DNA of 64,000 nt. It comes from Bacillus sp. FSL K6-3431. Its GTDB lineage: Bacteria > Bacillota > Bacilli > Bacillales > Bacillaceae_C. The stretch lies in NCBI RefSeq assembly GCF_038002605.1, contig NZ_JBBOCT010000001.1, positions 4,402,001 to 4,466,000 on the forward strand. Reading direction: 5' to 3'. The notes beneath the pieces are model-generated. The model ran no database searches. It saw nothing but the letters and a program-made list of their open reading frames with translations, and was not told where the DNA came from. Positions 31,210 through 52,360 of this stretch are shown here, in pieces (the first letter of the stretch is position 1; each line of letters opens with the position of its first letter). Made by a program: the position numbers and the translations under genes.

Positions 31210-32040
31210 GTGTCTTTTATGGATATATATTTAAAGCCTGATTGCAAAAATTGTTTTGCCCTGTGTTGTGTTGCTTTACCTTATGCCAAATCAGCAGATT
31301 TTGCTTTCAATAAAGACGGTGGGGAGCCTTGTCGTAATTTATGCATTGATAACCGCTGCAGCATACATGACAAATTAAGCGATAAGGGCTTTCGCGGATG
31401 TGTCTCCTATGAATGTTTTGGAGCTGGGCAACATGTTTCGCAGAGTATATATAAAGGTAATGATTGGCGAAATAACATGGAAAAGTCAAGTGAGATGTTT
31501 GCGGTATTCCCCATTGTTCAACAGTTACATGAAATGCTCTGGTATCTCACCCAAGCCTTAGGGCTAACAGAAACGAAGCCATTTCAAAAAGAATTAAAAA
31601 ACGCTTATGACGAAACAGTACAAATGACAAACAGAACATCAGAGGAAATTTTAAGCTTAGACATACCTTCTCATCGAGAAACTGTTAACGATTTATTAGT
31701 CACGACAAGCGATTTAGTTCGTAAAGACTTTGTTCAAATGAATACAAAAAGAAAGATTAAAAAAGGACTAGACTATTTAGGAGCAAACTTAAAAGGTGCT
31801 GATCTAAAAGGAGCAAATTTTAGAGGAGCACTTTTAATTGCAGCTAACTTAAGTAATACAGATTTAAGAAAAGTGGATTTTATCGGTGCAGACTTAAGGG
31901 ATACAGATTTAAGTAATGCGGATCTAACTGATTGTATATTCTTAACACAATTCCAAGCTAATTCAGCTAAAGGGAATCAATATACTAAATTACCTTATTA
32001 TTTAAATACTCCTGATCATTGGCTAAGTGTTACCAAATAA
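31210..32040 (+). CDS. Pentapeptide-repeat protein with cysteine-rich N-terminus
   Basis: The 276-residue protein starts at ATG or the preceding GTG near 31210 (GAGGAAGTG upstream). Residues 10-80 carry a Cys cluster (CKNCFALCCVALPYA, CRNLCIDNRCSIHD, FRGCVSYECFG) of the kind that may bind a metal. Residues 185-255 contain about ten pentapeptide repeats of the A(D/N)LxG type (GANLKGADLKGANFRGALL ... GADLRDTDLSNADL), forming a right-handed quadrilateral helix. This two-part layout is seen in Bacillus proteins of unknown role. DNA-gyrase protection as in QnrB is possible but not shown. Confidence 0.85.
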   Translation: MSFMDIYLKPDCKNCFALCCVALPYAKSADFAFNKDGGEPCRNLCIDNRCSIHDKLSDKGFRGCVSYECFGAGQHVSQSIYKGNDWRNNMEKSSEMFAVFPIVQQLHEMLWYLTQALGLTETKPFQKELKNAYDETVQMTNRTSEEILSLDIPSHRETVNDLLVTTSDLVRKDFVQMNTKRKIKKGLDYLGANLKGADLKGANFRGALLIAANLSNTDLRKVDFIGADLRDTDLSNADLTDCIFLTQFQANSAKGNQYTKLPYYLNTPDHWLSVTK

Positions 32041-32240: not shown

Positions 32241-32761
32241 ATGACAAAATTTAATTTAGAACAAAAATTAGAGGCTGTAATTAAGTATCAAAATGATTTT
32301 GAAAGTGTAAGGGATTTCGCTAGATCTTTAGGAGCGAATCATGAAATCGTTCGTATGTGGATAAAACAATTTGATTATCACGGTGTAAAAGCATTTGAAA
32401 AAACTATACATCTTACACTTTGCAGTTTAAACTAGACGTACTTAATTATCTGAACGAACATGGGACGTCTCCAAATGATGCTGCAGTCATTTTTAACAAT
32501 TCTTCGCCTGCGCTCATTAGAAAATGGCGAATGCAACTGTGCACAGTCGGAATCGGCGCCCTAAATCAAAAGAAAAAGGGGCGTCCATCCATGAAAAAAG
32601 ACCATCAGAAACAAAGCAAGAAAGCCGCACTAGCTGAAGGATCGGTAGAATCTCTACAGGCAGAATTAGAGCATTTACGTATGGAAAATGCGTATTTAAA
32701 AAAGTTGAATGCCTTAGTTCAAAACAAGGAAAAATCACCAAACAAGACAAAGCACAAGTAG
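32241..32761 (+). pseudogene. IS3 transposase orfA, frameshifted
   Basis: The first frame starts ATG 32241 (TKFNLEQKLEAVIKYQNDFE, a helix-turn-helix) and loses phase near 32400-32412, in a run of A residues. It resumes as YTSYTLQFKLDVLNYLNE, a second helix-turn-helix, then KKGRPSMKK and a leucine-zipper-like EELEHLRMENAYLKK-type helix. OrfA binds the IS ends. The lost base makes it nonfunctional. Confidence 0.8.
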
Positions 32762-33601
32762 TCTTTGAATTAGGGCATGAGTTTACGGTGAAATCATTAG
32801 TTAAACTGGCTGGGATTCCACGCAGTACGTACTACGATTTAGTGGAAAGAATGAATCGTCCTGATCCAGATACCGATTTAAAAGTGACAATTAAAGCGAT
32901 CTATGACGAACATGAAGGACGCTATGGCTATCATCGTATTCGTGATGAGTTAGCGAACCGTGGACAGCAAGTGAACCATAAAAAAGTACAGCGGATTATG
33001 AAGGAATTGGGCTTGAAATGCCAGGTGCGCATTAAAAAATATCGCTCATACTAAGGAGCGGTTGGCAAGATTGCTCCCAATATTTTGAACCGCCAATTTA
33101 CAGCCGAAAAGCCAAATGAGAAATGGGTGACGGATATAACGGAGTTTAAATTATTTGGGGAAAAGCTCTATCTTTCGCCTGTTTTAGACTTATTTAACGG
33201 CGAAATTATTACCTATACAATCGGTTCCAGACCAACTTATTCCCTTGTTTCAGAGATGTTAGACATGGCTTTTAACCGCTTGTCTGAAGAAGACGAACTC
33301 CTGATACATTCGGATCAAGGCTGGCATTACCAAAATGAAGCAATATCGTTATGCCTTAAAAGAACGCGGGATTACACAAAGCATGTCACGAAAAGGAAAC
33401 TGTTATGATAATTCTGTGATGGAGAATTTTTTTGGAATCATGAAATCGGAGTTCCTCTATTTCAAGGAATTTAAAAGCGTAGAGCATTTTAAAGTAGAGT
33501 TAGAAAAATATATAAATTACTATAACAACAAACGAATCAAGGCAAAATTAAAAGGTATGAGCCCGGTGCAATACCGGACTCATACCTTACAAGCCGCCTA
33601 A
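32701..33601 (+). pseudogene. IS3 transposase orfB (DDE), stop codon and frameshift
   Basis: Read by -1 frameshift from orfA, it has the HTH_21 region (SRSTYYDLV-like, YDEHEGRYGYHRIRDEL) and the integrase core with D in WVTDITEF, D in SPVLDLF and E in [18 protein letters not shown] at 33052-33054 replaces a sense codon after KYRSY, and one extra A near 33333 shifts the frame after HSDQGWHYQ. The catalytic triad can still be read, but the protein cannot be made. Confidence 0.85.
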
Positions 33602-35784: not shown

Positions 35785-38166
35785 ATGGATGAAGAGCTAA
35801 TAAAAAATGCCGATGCATGCTATCGGCTTGCTGAGCAGAAGGCTGCTCAGTATTTTCAATCCCTTTATGTGCAAGTTATAGACAAGACCTATGTTCCTAC
35901 TTTAACAAAAGATATAAAATTATGGAAATACAACCATATTCATCATTCATTATTATCTCTTTTTTCGCGTGGAAAAAGAACCCCTGATTCGCAAGAGTAT
36001 TACAATTATATTCGATGGTTGGATTACGCAGGCAAACTAGATAATTACCTAGATCGAAGCGTCTCCTATATTTACATGCGTGATTTAGGTAAAGCCCTGA
36101 ACTCAACTGACACACAGATCAGGGTTGGACGAATGGTTGACAGTTTAAAAAAACATCTGATTCATTCCACGGCAGCAGACCGAGGTGACAGAACTGAAAC
36201 GATCAGTATGGCTGGGTTATACCGGATAGCCCAGAAGGAAGGTATTGAATCCACCATGATCTGGGTGATAAACAAACTAAAGACTGTATCCTCCAATATT
36301 CCAAAAGGGATGGATGCTGAGCAAGCCCAACGAAAACTAATCAAAGTCATTGCCGGGGTAATCATGCACGAGGTTGAAGAGATGAACGATGAGATATCTG
36401 CTGAAGAACGTGCTCAAAAACTTGATGAAGCTATTAGGCTTGGGTATTCCTATGGTTTGACATATCCCTTTATTGACGATCTTCTAGATGCCAAAATCTT
36501 ATCCGCTAAAGAGGAAAAGCAATATTCCGATTTAATACGTACCACGCTTATCACAGGAACTGTACCGGAATTGGGTGAGTGGACTGGAAATAACATGGAT
36601 CTGATCCAATATATTCATTCAGAACTTCGAGATGCCTTTGAGTATATTAATGCACATCAGCGACAAGAGACGAGGAAAAAGTTTGCTGAGCAATGTTATG
36701 TATTTTTTAATTCACAGGAAGTAGACCGTAAGAAGGATCTATCCAATGCGAATTACACCAATGAAGAGCTTTATATACCCGTCATTTTAAAATCCTCTTC
36801 TTCACGATTGATTGTCCGTTCAGTAATAAGTGCTTCAGGGGATGAAGGATTTGACAACAGAACATTCTTCTACGGTATTTATAACCAGTTGGCTGATGAT
36901 TTTGCAGATATGTTTGATGACATGAAGAATGGTGCGGTAACGCCCTATACCTACTATATGAAATATCATGATAAACGCCCGGATCTTATAAATCCTTTTG
37001 AATTATATTGGACGGTCATTTCCAATTTGATCCATAACGTATATCATTCAGATGCCAAATCCTGCGAGTTGATTCTGGATCGAGCAATAAACGGATTGAA
37101 ACGGTTTAAAGAACGAATGGGAACTAAAAAATATAACGAAGTTATGGAGCTATTTGCTTCTGGAAATCCAAAATTCAATAAAGTCATCCAAAATGTAGTT
37201 CGGAAAGCGGATGATGTCGATTTTTTTGATAAACTGCTCCGAGACCATATGATTACCATTCTAAAAAATGAACGGAAGGAGCAGGAAGACTTTTTAAATA
37301 CGGTCGAAACCGTACGTAATAAGATCAACAACATCTTAATAATCCCTAAAATCGAGAATGATTCTTTGATGGAAGAGCCATTGATTGATGCGGCAAATTA
37401 CAGTTTGGAAGGTGACGGAAAGCGAATCCGGCCAATAGTTACTTGGGTTATGGGCGTTAACGAATATGGAATAAAAAGTTCAGCAATCGTACCACTTTTG
37501 AAATCATTAGAATATATGCATACGGCATCCCTAATCTTTGATGATCTACCATCCCAGGATAATGCGTCCATTCGTAGGGGGCGTCCAACTCTACATCAGG
37601 TGTATAACACTGCTATAGCAGAATTAACCGGCCTCTTTCTGACTCAGAAGGCAATCTGGGAACAAGCATCTCTTGACCAGTTTGATTCGAAAACTGTGCT
37701 TAACTTGGTTCAATACTCAGCCAAGGTGACAGGGGATATGTGTATGGGACAGGCGATGGATTTGGATTCCAAAGGGCAACAATTGACACTGGAACAATTG
37801 AATATGATGAGCTTTTATAAAACTGGGTTAGCATTCGAGGCATCCCTCATAATGCCTGCAATTCTCGCCCATGCGAAGGATTTAGAAATGGAAGCTTTAA
37901 AAAAGTTCGCCTATCATGCCGGCATTGCTTTTCAGATTAAAGATGACTTGCTTGATGTTGAAGGAGATTTGATCTTACTCGGAAAATCGATTGGAAAAGA
38001 TGCTGAAAACAACAATTCGACATTTGTGTCAATCCTTGGAGTTGTTGGCGCCAGAAAAGAGATGTGGGAACATTACTGCCTTGCGATAGAAGCGTTGCAA
38101 GAGGTGCCACGCAATACCACTTTTCTGAAGCAATTATTAAAGTATATTGTGAACCGGGACCATTAA
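35785..38166 (+). CDS. Two-domain class I isoprenoid synthase: N-terminal terpene-synthase-like domain fused to a prenyl diphosphate synthase
   Basis: ATG 35785 opens a 793-codon frame. Residues about 500-793 form a complete trans-prenyl diphosphate synthase: GDGKRIRP (543-550), the first Asp-rich motif DDLPSQD (586-592), RRGRPT (597-602), QAMDLD (656-661) and the second Asp-rich motif DDLLD (720-724) with KSIGKD after it. Four-residue spacing within DDLPSQD fits a short-chain bacterial enzyme making C15-C20 chains from isopentenyl and allylic diphosphates. The first 490 residues are also all-helical and carry DDLLD (231-235) and DDFAD (371-375), metal-binding-type motifs of class I terpenoid enzymes. 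I infer that one domain makes a prenyl diphosphate and the other converts it. It stands alone, followed 36 bp later by fosB. Confidence 0.8.
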   Translation: MDEELIKNADACYRLAEQKAAQYFQSLYVQVIDKTYVPTLTKDIKLWKYNHIHHSLLSLFSRGKRTPDSQEYYNYIRWLDYAGKLDNYLDRSVSYIYMRDLGKALNSTDTQIRVGRMVDSLKKHLIHSTAADRGDRTETISMAGLYRIAQKEGIESTMIWVINKLKTVSSNIPKGMDAEQAQRKLIKVIAGVIMHEVEEMNDEISAEERAQKLDEAIRLGYSYGLTYPFIDDLLDAKILSAKEEKQYSDLIRTTLITGTVPELGEWTGNNMDLIQYIHSELRDAFEYINAHQRQETRKKFAEQCYVFFNSQEVDRKKDLSNANYTNEELYIPVILKSSSSRLIVRSVISASGDEGFDNRTFFYGIYNQLADDFADMFDDMKNGAVTPYTYYMKYHDKRPDLINPFELYWTVISNLIHNVYHSDAKSCELILDRAINGLKRFKERMGTKKYNEVMELFASGNPKFNKVIQNVVRKADDVDFFDKLLRDHMITILKNERKEQEDFLNTVETVRNKINNILIIPKIENDSLMEEPLIDAANYSLEGDGKRIRPIVTWVMGVNEYGIKSSAIVPLLKSLEYMHTASLIFDDLPSQDNASIRRGRPTLHQVYNTAIAELTGLFLTQKAIWEQASLDQFDSKTVLNLVQYSAKVTGDMCMGQAMDLDSKGQQLTLEQLNMMSFYKTGLAFEASLIMPAILAHAKDLEMEALKKFAYHAGIAFQIKDDLLDVEGDLILLGKSIGKDAENNNSTFVSILGVVGARKEMWEHYCLAIEALQEVPRNTTFLKQLLKYIVNRDH

Positions 38167-38202: not shown

Positions 38203-38625
38203 GTGTCTGTAAAAGGTTTAAATCATTTTTTATTTTCTGTGTCTAATTTAGAGAACTCTATTGAGTTTTATAAAAATGTGTTTGATGCAAAGTTGTTAGT
38301 TAAAGGTAGAACTACTGCTTATTTTGATTTAGATGGTATGTGGCTTGCTCTTAATGAAGAAAAAGATATTCCTCGTAATGAAATAAGCCAATCATACACA
38401 CATATAGCTTTTTCAATTGAAGAGACAGAATTTGATTATATGTATGAGAAATTAAAGCAATTGAACGTAAACATCCTATTGGGACGTCAAAGAGACAAAA
38501 GAGATAAAAAGTCAATTTACTTTATTGACCCAGATGGTCATAAGTTTGAATTTCATACGGGTACTTTAGAAGATAGACTGGAATATTATAAACAAGAAAA
38601 AGCACATATGGAGTTTGATGATTAA
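38203..38625 (+). CDS. fosB: FosB metallothiol transferase (fosfomycin resistance)
   Basis: The start is GTG 38203 after TGAGGTGA. The 140-residue protein is a VOC-fold FosB: metal ligands H8 (GLNHFLF), H67 (YTHIAF) and E116 (HKFEFHTG) are all present, as are the K-x-x-R-D-K-K loop and the DPDGHK motif. It opens the fosfomycin epoxide with a thiol such as bacillithiol. Length and C-terminus ([14 protein letters not shown]) match FosB rather than FosA. A terminator follows. Confidence 0.92.
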
Positions 38626-38759: not shown

Positions 38760-38988
38760 TCCTTACATAAGATTATTAGTATTAATGCAACCAACCTTTA
38801 ATTCAAAACATTTACCAACAATAAACTTGGTTAAAAAATAGATACATTCCTTTTAAACAGACTAGGTAGGAGAGTAGTATAAGAATATTTTTAATAGTTC
38901 GGCTAGTTTTGGGATAATTCTGATGTTAAAACTCAAATTTTCGTGTAAAATTACAAAGATATCCCATCTTAGAGAGGAGCATGGCCTG

Positions 38989-40341
38989 GTGATAAAAGAC
39001 ATGACAGAGGGCCGCCCGCTTAAACTAATATTTGCGTTTACAATGCCAATGTTGATCGGCGGAGTGTTTCAACAGTTTTATAATGTGGCGGACACCTTGA
39101 TTGTAGGAAACTTTGTAGGATCTCGTGCTCTTGCTGCTGTAGGTGCTACAGGTTCCACTTTATTTTTTATACTTTCTCTTACTTTGGGGCTTACAAATGC
39201 TTTTTCTATTGTGATGTCCCAGTACTTTGGTGCTAAAAATGAAGAAATGGTCCGAAAAACAATGGTCAGTTCTATTTACATCACAATGCTATGCATAATT
39301 GTATTGTGTTTTGTGGGGATATTTGGAGCTAGATCGCTTATGGAATTATTGAAAACGCCACCTGACATTATCAACGATGCCACTCTATACATTCAAATTT
39401 GTGTTGGTGGTAGTGTGGGATTACTTATTTATAACGGTGCTGCTGCAGTTCTTCGGGCAGTTGGTGATAGTAGAACGCCTTTATACTTTTTAATTCTTTC
39501 TTCTATTCTAAACGTATTATTAGATTTACTATTTGTAATCGTTTTCGATATGGCAGTAATGGGTGTAGCAATAGCAACAGTGATAGCCCAGGTTATTTCT
39601 GCTGTACTTTGTGTAATTTATATATACAAAAAGTTTCATATTTTTCGCGTATCACGTTCAGAATGGGGCTTGCATTGGGGAAATATCGGATTGATTTCTA
39701 AAATTGGCGTGCCCATGGGGTTACAAAGTTTGTTAATATCTATTGGTGAAATGGCCGTCACAGGAGTTGTGAACGCTTATGGAACGAATGCAGTTGCAGC
39801 TTATACAACTAGTTTGAGAGTGCAACAGTTTGCTACTCTTGCCTATCTTAATATTGCCCAAGCATTTGCCACCTTTGCCGCACAAAATCTAGGTGCTAAG
39901 AAGCCGGCACGGATACAAGATGCTTTTAAAAAGGTTGCACTTATTACGGTTGGTCTAAGTATTTTTTCTTCGATATTGATCTTCCTGTTTGGAGATGTAA
40001 TTATAAGATGGTTTATTTCTGATCAAGATTCCCATCTTGAAACAATAGTAGAAATGTCCGGAGAATTCTTGCTTATCAGTGCCTGCTTCTTCCCTTTTTT
40101 AGGACTTATATGGCTTTACAACAATACATTGCGTGGGATGGGCGTTGTCACTATTCCATTAATATCAAGTGTTGTTGAGTTAATATCTAAGGTAGGGCTC
40201 TCCTTATTACTTGGGATGATGTTTGGCTATATTGGTGTATGGTATGCAGGGCCAATCGGATGGGCGCTTGGATTAATCCCGTCTTTTTTTGAATATCATA
40301 GTGGCAGATGGAAACGCTTGGCTGATCGGATTGTAGGGTAG
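38989..40341 (+). CDS. MATE family efflux transporter
   Basis: GTG 38989 follows GAGAGGAGC. An upstream in-frame ATG (38923) would add residues not seen in the family. The 450-residue protein has twelve helices in two MATE halves. The N-terminal half has DMTEGRPLKLIFAFTMPML, FQQFYNVADTLIVGNFVG and GAAAVLRAVGDSRTPLYF. The second half has GVPMGLQSLLISIGEMAVTG and LAYLNIAQAFATFAAQNLGA. Such pumps export cationic drugs or natural products using sodium or proton gradients. It follows fosB, so the region is resistance-like. Confidence 0.9.
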   Translation: MIKDMTEGRPLKLIFAFTMPMLIGGVFQQFYNVADTLIVGNFVGSRALAAVGATGSTLFFILSLTLGLTNAFSIVMSQYFGAKNEEMVRKTMVSSIYITMLCIIVLCFVGIFGARSLMELLKTPPDIINDATLYIQICVGGSVGLLIYNGAAAVLRAVGDSRTPLYFLILSSILNVLLDLLFVIVFDMAVMGVAIATVIAQVISAVLCVIYIYKKFHIFRVSRSEWGLHWGNIGLISKIGVPMGLQSLLISIGEMAVTGVVNAYGTNAVAAYTTSLRVQQFATLAYLNIAQAFATFAAQNLGAKKPARIQDAFKKVALITVGLSIFSSILIFLFGDVIIRWFISDQDSHLETIVEMSGEFLLISACFFPFLGLIWLYNNTLRGMGVVTIPLISSVVELISKVGLSLLLGMMFGYIGVWYAGPIGWALGLIPSFFEYHSGRWKRLADRIVG

Positions 40342-40558: not shown

Positions 40559-41932
40559 TTGAAAAGAGAGACAAATAGAAAGTTCGTTGTCATCGCATTA
40601 TTAATTTCAACGTTTCTAACTGCAATAGAAGGAACGATCGTAAGTACAGCCATGCCAAAAATCGTTGGAGATTTGGGTGGCAGTCACTTATATACTTGGG
40701 TAATTTCTGTATACTTATTAGCCGTCGTAATTAGTACCCCTGTTTTTGGGAAAATGGCAGATTTATATGGAAGAAAGCTGATGTTTACGATAGGTACGAT
40801 CGTATTTTTAGTAGGATCCGTACTTTCGGGGCTTTCACAAACGATGGAACAGCTCGTTTTATTCCGCCTAATTCAAGGAATCGGCGGAGGAGCATTAGCA
40901 ACAATACCATTTACAATTATTGGAGATGTTTTTGAATTTAAAATGCGTGCAAAAATGCAAGGATGGATTAGCAGTGTATGGGGAATTGCGGGGATCATTG
41001 GTCCGCTTGCTGGTGGATTTATAGTTGACACGATTTCTTGGCATTGGATCTTTTTTATGAATATTCCTTTCGGGATTATTTCATTAATTTTTTTATGGAC
41101 ATCTTTGCATGAGCAAATAGAAAAGAAAAAGCAAATTATTGATTATGGTGGTATTTTGACGTTTGCAATTTGTATGACCGCCTTTTTATATGCATTAACA
41201 TTATTAAAAGAATATAAACAGGTTACAGGTAATATTTCTATATTATTTATTGTAGCACTCGTGGGACTTTGTTTATTTATTTGGATTGAGGCTAAGGGGA
41301 AAGAGCCAATGTTGCCACTTTCTCTATTTAAAAATAGCTTTATTACAATATCAAATATTGCTGGGTTTTTATTAGGCTTCATCCTTGTAACCGTTACGTT
41401 TTATATTCCATTATGGGTTCAGGGCGTAACGAATTTGAATGCGACCTTTTCCGGGATAGCCATGTTGCCAATGTCACTTACATGGCCACTTGGAGCAGTT
41501 TTTTCGGGGAGATGGATGAGCAGGAAACCAATTGCTCATATTACATTGATAGGTATTGCAGTCATTATCATTGGATGCATCGGCTTAGTATTTTTTCGGA
41601 CTGATACAACGGTGGCATGGATGATGGTCGTCACGGCTATTTTGGGGCTGGGTTTTGGGCTAGCCTTTACAGCATTCACAGTTGCAGTTCAATCATCAGT
41701 AGATTGGAATATGCGTGGAGCGGCAATGGGATCGAATAATTTATTAAGGAATTTAGGACAAGCAATTGGAATTGCCATTTCAGGCTTATGGTTAAGTGAT
41801 GAGTTAAAAGGGCATGCATTAGAGTCAAGTTTGCACACAGTCTTTATTATGTTAGTAGTGCTGGCAGTATGTGCATTTGCTGTAACGGGAATATTACTAA
41901 ATAAAAAAGAAATGGCTCTATCCACTGATTAA
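40559..41932 (+). CDS. MFS drug efflux transporter, DHA2-like 14-helix type
   Basis: The start is TTG 40559 after GAAGGGGAG. The 457-residue protein has the DHA signatures: TAIEGTIVSTAMPKIVGDLG in helix 1 (motif D1), GKMADLYGRKLMFTIG (motif A), RLIQGIGGGA (motif B) and GPLAGGFIVD (motif C, the antiporter motif). Two extra central helices (YGGILTFAICMTAFLYALTL and ILFIVALVGLCLFIW) give 14 in total. It is a proton-coupled multidrug pump. It is separated from the MATE gene by 217 bp with no clear terminator. Confidence 0.88.
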   Translation: MKRETNRKFVVIALLISTFLTAIEGTIVSTAMPKIVGDLGGSHLYTWVISVYLLAVVISTPVFGKMADLYGRKLMFTIGTIVFLVGSVLSGLSQTMEQLVLFRLIQGIGGGALATIPFTIIGDVFEFKMRAKMQGWISSVWGIAGIIGPLAGGFIVDTISWHWIFFMNIPFGIISLIFLWTSLHEQIEKKKQIIDYGGILTFAICMTAFLYALTLLKEYKQVTGNISILFIVALVGLCLFIWIEAKGKEPMLPLSLFKNSFITISNIAGFLLGFILVTVTFYIPLWVQGVTNLNATFSGIAMLPMSLTWPLGAVFSGRWMSRKPIAHITLIGIAVIIIGCIGLVFFRTDTTVAWMMVVTAILGLGFGLAFTAFTVAVQSSVDWNMRGAAMGSNNLLRNLGQAIGIAISGLWLSDELKGHALESSLHTVFIMLVVLAVCAFAVTGILLNKKEMALSTD

Positions 41933-50261: not shown

Positions 50262-51059
50262 ATGAACTGGTTATTGATCAAAAAAATACTTCGGAAAAAG
50301 AAAATTCACTCGTTAAATAAGCGAGTGACAGAAAGCATAGATTCATTGCCAGACAAGCCAAACGAACAGAAATCTCCAGAAAACTACGACGAAGTCATTG
50401 GGCGAATGGCTGCTTTTTTTGCCCATGAAATCCGTAATCCACTAACATCCATAATCGGTTTTGCTCAGTTTCTCGAACAAGATCAAGTAGTCCAATCCAA
50501 TCATAATATTAGTCAGTACCTATCCATTATTAAAGAGGAAGCTTTACGAATGGAGTCGTTAATTAAGGAGCTTCTGAGTTTATCAACGACCGATTTTCAT
50601 CAAGATAATCTTTCTATCATTGATATGAAATACAGCATCGAAAAAGTAATTACTATTTTTTCTATGCAACCAAATCATGCGAATGTCCAATTCTCAACGA
50701 GTTTTTCAGATGAAACCTATATCAATGGAAACGTAGGTCGGTTTGAGCAATTGCTCATTAATTTAATTAATAATGCAATTGAAGCGTCGAACGATGATTG
50801 TATCATTGATATTCACATTGAAAAAGAAAACGAATATGCATCTGTCTTGATTAGTGACAATGGTATAGGTATTCCAGTGGAACAACTTGAACAGATTTTC
50901 TTTCCTCTGTATACAACGAAAGATGAGGGTACTGGAGTGGGGCTGCCTATTTGTAAAGCAATTGTGGAAACGTTAAATGGGACGATTTCTATTCAGAATA
51001 ATCTACCTAAAGGCACTCAAGTAAAGTTAAGGATACCTTTAATGAAGGATCCAGCGTGA
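50262..51059 (+). CDS. Soluble sensor histidine kinase, first gene of the Agr-like locus
   Basis: The 265-residue protein starts at ATG 50262 after AGGAGCG. It lacks membrane helices and a sensor domain. The H box is FFAHEIRNPLTS (phospho-acceptor H55), followed by the HisKA helices, N box LINLINNAIEAS (N170/N171), G1 DNGIGIP, F box FFPLYTTK and G2 GTGVGLP. It looks fully active and is like the kinases of the sporulation or Kin group. No response regulator is nearby, so the partner must be elsewhere (Spo0F-like candidates). It lies 38 bp upstream of the AgrC-like gene. Confidence 0.9.
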   Translation: MNWLLIKKILRKKKIHSLNKRVTESIDSLPDKPNEQKSPENYDEVIGRMAAFFAHEIRNPLTSIIGFAQFLEQDQVVQSNHNISQYLSIIKEEALRMESLIKELLSLSTTDFHQDNLSIIDMKYSIEKVITIFSMQPNHANVQFSTSFSDETYINGNVGRFEQLLINLINNAIEASNDDCIIDIHIEKENEYASVLISDNGIGIPVEQLEQIFFPLYTTKDEGTGVGLPICKAIVETLNGTISIQNNLPKGTQVKLRIPLMKDPA

Positions 51060-51097
51060 AAGTGAGAGACCACTAAATAATATAGGAGTTATTGCAT

Positions 51098-52360
51098 ATG
51101 AATGGCATTATTACCTTTTTTATGTCCATATTTGAATGGACATCCCTGTTAATCTTTCCAATTGTTTTATTAGGCTATCCATTTCGTAGATATTTTAAAT
51201 CGATTATGATTATTTCAGTGATTATAGGTCTGTTTTCCTATGTGCTACACATGACATCACTTCACATATTAGTTATTATAGCTTTTCAAATGGTCACTTT
51301 ACTGCTGCTAATTAAGTGGTTATTTCGGGCGAAAAAACTTGAAGCTTTGGTCATCACTAGTATGGGATATGGTTTTTATATATTTATACAAATGCTTCTC
51401 CTTGAAATTATTGCGCGATTATTTGAATTTGAACATTTCCAACTATTTTTTACATTTAATGCAAAAACAATGATACAAATAGTTGGATTTACCTTTATTT
51501 TTACAATTAGCTTAGCTATCTATTATTCAAAATATCAATTGGATGAGTTACGTCATTATATTATTGCCCCATCTGTTAATAAGAAATATCAGACAATCAT
51601 CATCCTGATCTCTTTCTTAACCTTTATCTTTTCTTGGTTAATCATATTTTCGATGGTGGTAGTAGATTCAACCTCTAAAAATATGCTCATACTTTCTATC
51701 ATGGTATTCAGTTTTATTATCTTATCATTTTATTTAATATTACATACGCAGTTTCAAAGGAAACGAATCGTTGAGGCAAGAAAGTTTTTTCTCGACCAAG
51801 ATCAACAAGCATCGTTACTTATGGAAAAACTGAAGAAGGATGAAAGCACGCATTTTCAAGTTATTGTAAAGCTTGCGGAACGTCAAGCACCACAACTTAT
51901 TAAAGAATATATTAAAGCGAATCAATTAGACGAAGGCCCGGCACAAATAAATGTACAGGCCGATCTTACACCCTCAATAGACGAGTTACTCTATGCTTTC
52001 CTGATTAATAAAAGAAAACTTGCTAGTTTATTCGGTATTTCAATTCAAGTATCTAAACAAATTGAATACGATGCACCTACTGCACTCCAGCAAATACGTT
52101 GTCTAAGCATTATTATCGATGACTTAATTTATATGCTTTACGAATCATCTGTAACCGTGGATAAAACTATTTACTTTCATATAGAAGCAATGAACAATGA
52201 AGGTATATCCTATACAATTTCTTGCTCTCTTTACATCAAGGAACAGACTCACACAAATTTACAGCTGTTTGATGCGCTTGTACAATTCAAACAGCTAGGA
52301 GCGGTCATTCAATCAGAGTGGCAACCAGTACACTTAACGATTCGCACGCCTATAAAATAA
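51098..52360 (+). CDS. AgrC-like polytopic sensor with eroded kinase domain
   Basis: I use ATG 51098 because AGGAG lies nine bases before it. The 420-residue protein has seven hydrophobic segments in the first 215 residues, as in peptide receptors of the AgrC/ComP type. A coiled linker is followed by a helical C-terminus where FLINKRKLASLFGISIQVSK matches the family's cytosolic core. The H box is absent (no H-E/D-x-x-N sequence), and the N-box position reads LSIIIDDLIYMLYES with aspartates. G boxes cannot be recognised. It therefore appears to be a receptor without kinase activity. Confidence 0.7.
   Translation: MNGIITFFMSIFEWTSLLIFPIVLLGYPFRRYFKSIMIISVIIGLFSYVLHMTSLHILVIIAFQMVTLLLLIKWLFRAKKLEALVITSMGYGFYIFIQMLLLEIIARLFEFEHFQLFFTFNAKTMIQIVGFTFIFTISLAIYYSKYQLDELRHYIIAPSVNKKYQTIIILISFLTFIFSWLIIFSMVVVDSTSKNMLILSIMVFSFIILSFYLILHTQFQRKRIVEARKFFLDQDQQASLLMEKLKKDESTHFQVIVKLAERQAPQLIKEYIKANQLDEGPAQINVQADLTPSIDELLYAFLINKRKLASLFGISIQVSKQIEYDAPTALQQIRCLSIIIDDLIYMLYESSVTVDKTIYFHIEAMNNEGISYTISCSLYIKEQTHTNLQLFDALVQFKQLGAVIQSEWQPVHLTIRTPIK

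Follow-up and report, generated by a model that had tools for sequence, protein, structure and literature searches.

The question raised by this locus is whether one bacterial gene joins a prenyl chain builder to a second isoprenoid synthase. We analyzed a 64,000-nucleotide stretch (the window) of Bacillus sp. FSL K6-3431, contig NZ_JBBOCT010000001.1, in which a 793-residue open reading frame (ORF) appears to encode two class I isoprenoid-synthase-like domains in a single chain. An earlier note had proposed this layout from the DNA alone, and our analysis supports it, the N-terminal domain being assigned by a remote fold match. The aspartate-rich (Asp) motifs and other signatures that it listed are present in the ORF translation, both in the C-terminal part (GDGKRIRP 543-550, DDLPSQD 586-592 and DDLLD 720-724) and in the N-terminal part (DDLLD 231-235 and DDFAD 371-375); the first 490 residues are, as it stated, all-helical, with helix and loop and zero strands in two AlphaFold2 (AF2) models. 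Spacing between the Asp motifs is 140 residues in the N-terminal half versus 134 in the C-terminal half. We consider the fused protein to be probably, if by a modest measure, a bacterial bifunctional (chimeric) terpene synthase.

The C-terminal domain scored 172.5 bits against PF00348 (gathering cut-off 27) and corresponds to a trans-prenyl diphosphate synthase. The key residues of GKRxRP, the first aspartate-rich motif (FARM), RRG and the second aspartate-rich motif (SARM) are invariant in a full-length alignment of 108 rows, that is the query plus 107 homologues drawn from those listed, 48-87% identical to it. The farnesyl diphosphate synthase model NF045485 gave 226.5 bits, below its curated cut-off of 275. 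A bulky aromatic residue at position -5 of FARM stops chains at C15; in this protein the position holds Ala, so the product is predicted to be longer than C15, most simply geranylgeranyl diphosphate (GGPP), an exact length that we infer. Over its C-terminal 300 residues the protein shares motifs, fold and about 30% identity with bacterial IspA/CrtE (PF00348), while differing from them by Ala instead of Tyr at -5 and by about 490 extra residues in front. The same genome encodes a PF00494 protein, a separate DUF2600 (PF10776) synthase and a protein with a squalene-hopene cyclase C-terminal domain, together with what we take, by motif, to be an IspA-like protein (Tyr at -5 of FARM) and a HepT-like protein; the fused protein is thus additional to the housekeeping set.

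In the N-terminal half, residues D231, D232, D235, D371, D372, D375 and D379 are invariant, plus many other residues, including the basic K336, R341, R345, R183, K184 and K187. Being identical in 108/108 rows, the Asp motifs exceed chance. The second one, D-xxx-D-xxx-D, is spaced like the NSE/DTE motif of terpene synthases but differs from it in its letters (D-D-D). This conservation bears on the idea that the half is a catalytically dead partner which tunes chain length or oligomeric state, in the manner of the small subunits of geranyl diphosphate synthase or heptaprenyl diphosphate synthase. Small subunits with the class I fold are known to tune prenyl synthases, but here both Asp motifs and many basic residues never vary, the motifs are kept in stand-alone relatives (see below) and purifying selection is similar in both halves, with ratios of nonsynonymous to synonymous substitution rates (dN/dS) of 0.12-0.16 and 0.10-0.19 in 8 pairs; we regard a dead partner as very unlikely.

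Because a fold search with the full-length model filled up with matches to the C-terminal domain, the N-terminal half was modelled separately, and this AF2 model reached a predicted local distance difference test (pLDDT) score of 85.6. The best 50 rows listed from each of two fold searches (Foldseek and VIA) are what we take to be class I isoprenoid enzymes, although the similarity is remote, with no Foldseek E value below 0.001 among the matches listed. A class I terpenoid fold in residues 1-490 had been set beforehand as the point on which the proposal would stand or fall, and the result came out in its favour, as a remote match; on these predicted structures we assign the domain a class I terpenoid synthase fold with reserve.

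Residues 1-490 matched no Pfam or NCBIfam family over its cut-off. When 18 N-terminal sequences were searched at E 0.1, 14 families gave matches, and no known terpene synthase Pfam family was one of them. PF00348 was the sole family recurring beyond two of the 18 (7/18, weakly, best 3.2e-4), a signal which would suit a second elongating or transferring prenyltransferase, making a longer chain or placing the prenyl group onto an unidentified acceptor, so that the protein would be a two-stage chain builder and no cyclase. Other features agree with such a role: K336 lies 35 residues before D371 much like K679 lies 41 before D720, R183, K184 and K187 are invariant ahead of the first Asp motif, and the N-terminal second motif pairs best with the C-terminal SARM, non-significantly (hhalign-type profile match, probability 0.6%, E 0.1) and slightly better from the stand-alone relatives (28%, E 6e-4). 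However, GKRxRP and RRG, the isopentenyl diphosphate (IPP) site motifs whose key residues are invariant in the C-terminal half, have no counterpart in the N-terminal half, and VIA puts terpene synthases above prenyltransferases (one prenyltransferase, at rank 45, among the best 50 rows), although the Foldseek matches listed are mostly prenyltransferases. Taken together, we judge a second prenyltransferase unlikely, yet worth keeping in view. A PDB-sequence search with the N-terminal profile returned unrelated chains at the top, with a component of a heptaprenyl diphosphate synthase coming no better than E 2.6. A recent internal duplication of the C-terminal domain was also considered as the origin of the N-terminal one and rejected, the profile match between them being non-significant.

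Another possibility is that the N-terminal domain performs a head-to-head coupling of two prenyl diphosphates supplied by the C-terminal domain, in the style of squalene/phytoene synthases, giving a C30 or C40 hydrocarbon. These enzymes likewise combine a class I fold and two Asp motifs, their second motif resembles the Q-x2-D-x3-D-x2-DD found at 368-379, and the numerous invariant basic residues would also fit. Against this, PF00494 (squalene/phytoene synthase) was absent from the 14 families above, no squalene synthase was among the best 50 rows of either fold search (a weak absence), and a PF00494 protein is encoded elsewhere in the genome; head-to-head coupling is improbable in our estimation. 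YtpB/TeaS, the class IB large-terpene synthases (DUF2600, PF10776), are Bacilli enzymes of class I whose substrates are long prenyl diphosphates, and they have a D-xxx-D-xxx-D second motif in common with the fused protein. They differ from it in lacking profile similarity (hhalign probability 0.5%, and no PF10776 match in the 18 N-terminal sequences), and the genome has its own separate PF10776 gene; a profile-level link to class IB was rejected.

We therefore return to the chimeric terpene synthase. Since the N-terminal half carries both metal-binding motifs and lacks GKRxRP and RRG, its motifs make a role after elongation more likely than a second IPP condensation. The invariant R183, K184 and K187 and the weak PF00348 signal leave room for prenyl transfer and for head-to-head coupling. 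Judging by its strong homology, the C-terminal domain with Mg2+ would condense dimethylallyl diphosphate and IPP to an allylic diphosphate of all-trans geometry, whose chain probably exceeds C15 and is most simply C20 given Ala in place of the aromatic residue. From its fold and motifs, the N-terminal domain would then take this allylic diphosphate through D231DLLD, D371xxxD375xxxD379 and Mg2+, with K336, R341, R345 and other basic residues helping in diphosphate binding; the diphosphate would be ionised and a linear or cyclic terpene hydrocarbon or alcohol released. As the two domains are tethered, the intermediate may be handed from one site to the other.

To further place the first half we looked at proteins that carry it alone. 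In another Bacillota genome the N-terminal profile matched (E 1.4e-10) a 399-residue open frame interrupted by the contig end, which proved to be a member of a large family of ~420-residue proteins without a Pfam domain; of 7,553 candidates, 3,243 fell into this family at E 0.001. Where NCBI names them, it is as "class 1 isoprenoid biosynthesis enzyme" or "hypothetical protein", and they are mostly clostridial where the host is named, among the matches listed. They are not known to have an assigned function, and open-access literature searches found none. Profiles of the fused and stand-alone proteins (the latter from 27 of the best 120) matched with a probability of 94.7% (E 5.9e-8) over residues 222-390 only; this common core includes both Asp motifs and the upstream Lys, whereas the stand-alone proteins are not fused and their N- and C-terminal parts do not align to the fused protein. 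The reverse search from the stand-alone family returned one fused protein (E 6e-4). In the stand-alone profile the Lys and second motif align with KTG and SARM of the C-terminal prenyltransferase domain (the 28% match above), which hints at a prenyltransferase-like ancestry. A PDB-sequence search with this profile had octaprenyl diphosphate synthase at the top, only at E 0.04, and at three loci no prenyltransferase gene was found beside the stand-alone gene within the surrounding 14-18 kb. One stand-alone match (L171, genome G490) was reported with one internal TAA, though a 411-residue ORF spans most of it.

The order of the domains recalls the fungal chimeric terpene synthases (PTTS), a class characterised by making di- or sesterterpenes out of IPP and DMAPP. 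According to PMC8307374, they have an N-terminal terpene synthase and a C-terminal prenyltransferase and were called unique to fungi in 2021. The earlier note was mistaken in giving the fungal chimeras the opposite order, since the order described there is the same as in the fused protein. Both have (PMC8307374, PMC8190136) a single chain with a class I synthase domain first, a prenyltransferase last and two sets of Asp motifs. Under the PTTS definition in PMC8307374 the resemblance is one of architecture only, the first-domain fold match being remote; of the motif pair DDxxD/E and NSE/DTE, D231DLLD is present and the second has D-D-D letters at NSE spacing. Moreover, the Bacillota protein is bacterial, its N-terminal domain has neither a terpene synthase Pfam match nor the NSE/DTE letters, and its C-terminal domain is of the bacterial farnesyl/geranylgeranyl diphosphate synthase type, with DDLPSQD versus DDIED in a fungal example (PMC8307374). 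A predicted long helix connects its domains, versus the flexible ~70-residue linker described for fusicoccadiene synthase (PaFS) in PMC8190136. The Bacillota protein is thus chimera-like in architecture and should not be filed in the fungal family; its origin is likely independent. In the open-access PMC literature, a weak negative, we recognised no publication on the fused bacterial protein.

The fusion is not peculiar to this genome, as might have been supposed, and is spread through Bacillota in sampled Bacilli, a phylum-wide draw and GTDB contigs. Among the sampled Bacilli, 43/398 genomes carry it whole as a single open frame of 776-841 residues, with internal stops in 0/43; it is also present in 7/16 genomes of the window's own genus, the source genome among them, the other six being 61-80% identical over the first half. 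The best 120 homologues, window protein included, are all 781-811 residues long and 96-100% covered. In the phylum-wide draw a first-half match was found in 9/398 genomes, namely eight fusions (one outside Bacilli) and one stand-alone relative, while 443/476 pattern matches in the GTDB contigs encode a relative; the 80 loci that were retrieved include named carriers in Neobacillus, Metabacillus, Psychrobacillus, Sporosarcina, Paenibacillus and Clostridium. That the fusion merely reflects misannotation or misassembly, or that the gene is in decay, had nothing in its favour and is refuted by the stop-free architecture in the 43 Bacilli genomes, by its presence in many named species and by dN/dS of about 0.1-0.2; we give it practically no chance. 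No match was found in 72,556 plasmid and 50,697 phage records.

In a tree of 90 rows (the window, 8 of the 16 loci L031-L046, L047-L126 and L134) three Clostridium proteins form one starred group inside a Bacillaceae-dominated part, the enclosing forks being unstarred with SH-aLRT values of 81-91, and the nearest protein to that of the window is from Clostridium polyendosporum (83%). The sequences suggest a patchy distribution with likely horizontal transfer. One carrier, L081, bears the name Arthrobacter beigongshangensis, and another, P0289, the name Rhodococcus qingshengii; L081 falls together with Sporosarcina in this tree and is probably mislabelled.

A broader proposal, to which we give slightly less than an even chance, is that these proteins are an independently evolved bacterial chimeric class, in which a new prenyltransferase-derived terpene synthase family joined a C20-or-longer prenyl diphosphate synthase and spread horizontally through Bacillaceae, Caryophanaceae, Paenibacillaceae and clostridia, the single gene forming a complete pathway of its own to a terpenoid not yet described. 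If true, the same domain order with a sequence-unrelated synthase domain would represent convergent evolution of an assembly-line enzyme, and would add a terpene synthase family invisible to current Pfam and NCBIfam models. Likewise, a single gene would give access to Bacillota terpenoids and a starting point for work on the uncharacterised stand-alone relatives, which number more than three thousand. The ~790-residue homologues, where named, are mostly called "polyprenyl synthetase family protein" or "geranylgeranyl pyrophosphate synthase" among the matches listed, and a small terpenoid pathway may sit unstudied in Bacillus-related genes labelled "polyprenyl synthetase".

Table 1. Positions of the fused gene, its domains and motifs, and the downstream genes in the window.
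Feature	Position	Strand	Evidence
Fused isoprenoid synthase gene	35785..38166	+	ORF of 793 residues without internal stop; homologues share architecture
N-terminal class I terpenoid-synthase-like domain (putative), residues 1-490	35785..37254	+	AF2 model, fold search; no curated family
Basic cluster R183-K184-x-x-K187, upstream of first Asp motif	36331..36345	+	108/108 rows
First Asp motif D231DLLD235, end of helix 227-235	36475..36489	+	108/108 rows (D231, D232, D235); DSSP
K336, proposed diphosphate-binding Lys	36790..36792	+	108/108 rows; hhalign pairs K336 with EKGG Lys of stand-alone relatives
Second Asp motif D371xxxD375xxxD379, starting at end of helix 354-374	36895..36921	+	108/108 rows; DSSP
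Long helix 481-517 connecting both domains	37225..37335	+	Full-length AF2 model
C-terminal trans-prenyl diphosphate synthase domain, residues about 496-793	37270..38163	+	
GDGKRIRP, IPP-binding motif	37411..37434	+	K546, R547, R549 invariant
A581, position -5 before FARM (chain-length position)	37525..37527	+	A 103, S 4, G 1 of 108 rows; never aromatic
FARM DDLPSQD 586-592	37540..37560	+	108-row alignment
SARM DDLLD 720-724	37942..37956	+	D720, D721, D724 invariant
FosB/FosM-like fosfomycin resistance protein, downstream of fused gene	38203-38625		NF038306, 270.7 bits vs cut-off 255
MATE transporter, downstream	38923-40341		TIGR00797 over cut-off
MFS efflux-type transporter, downstream	40559-41932		No model over cut-off among best 25 of 63 matches

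The fosB gene and two drug pumps that had been pointed out beside the fused gene are indeed present downstream, but their place beside it is not conserved. Across 97 loci (L031-L126 and that of the window; several are second copies of one contig, e.g. L041/L083) no conserved neighbour gene was found: the commonest cluster occurs in 33/97 loci at scattered positions, and among the 30 commonest clusters at most 6/97 loci share relative position and strand, so this neighbourhood is no guide to function. Upstream regions, with start codons chosen by alignment, contained strict sigma-E/K promoter patterns in 0-1/97 cases, bare CATAnnnTA in 11/97, slightly in excess of the shuffled mean of 4.9 (the highest value in 200 shuffles was 11), and the housekeeping -10 TATAAT in 26/97 (shuffled mean 13.7, maximum 22). 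SpoIVA was detected in 40/43 carriers versus 228/355 non-carriers (Fisher p 5e-5, uncorrected for relatedness); a strict tie of the fused gene to sporulation was rejected because three carriers of one genus (g62: G046, G269 and G358) have no SpoIVA match.

Elsewhere in the window, 51092-52360 encodes a 422-residue protein with no NCBIfam match at 1e-4 and an N-terminal half hydrophobic by eye, directly preceded by an ORF resembling a histidine kinase by eye (50262-51059). The protein at 31210-32040 carries pentapeptide repeats in a C-terminal stretch, and its N-terminal part looks Cys-rich by eye; all family scores are below cut-off. About 2 kb upstream of the fused gene, an IS3-family transposase is split over short frames (32420-33601), the IS3 model matching positions 104-191 in one frame and 289-369 in another, and is apparently a broken element.
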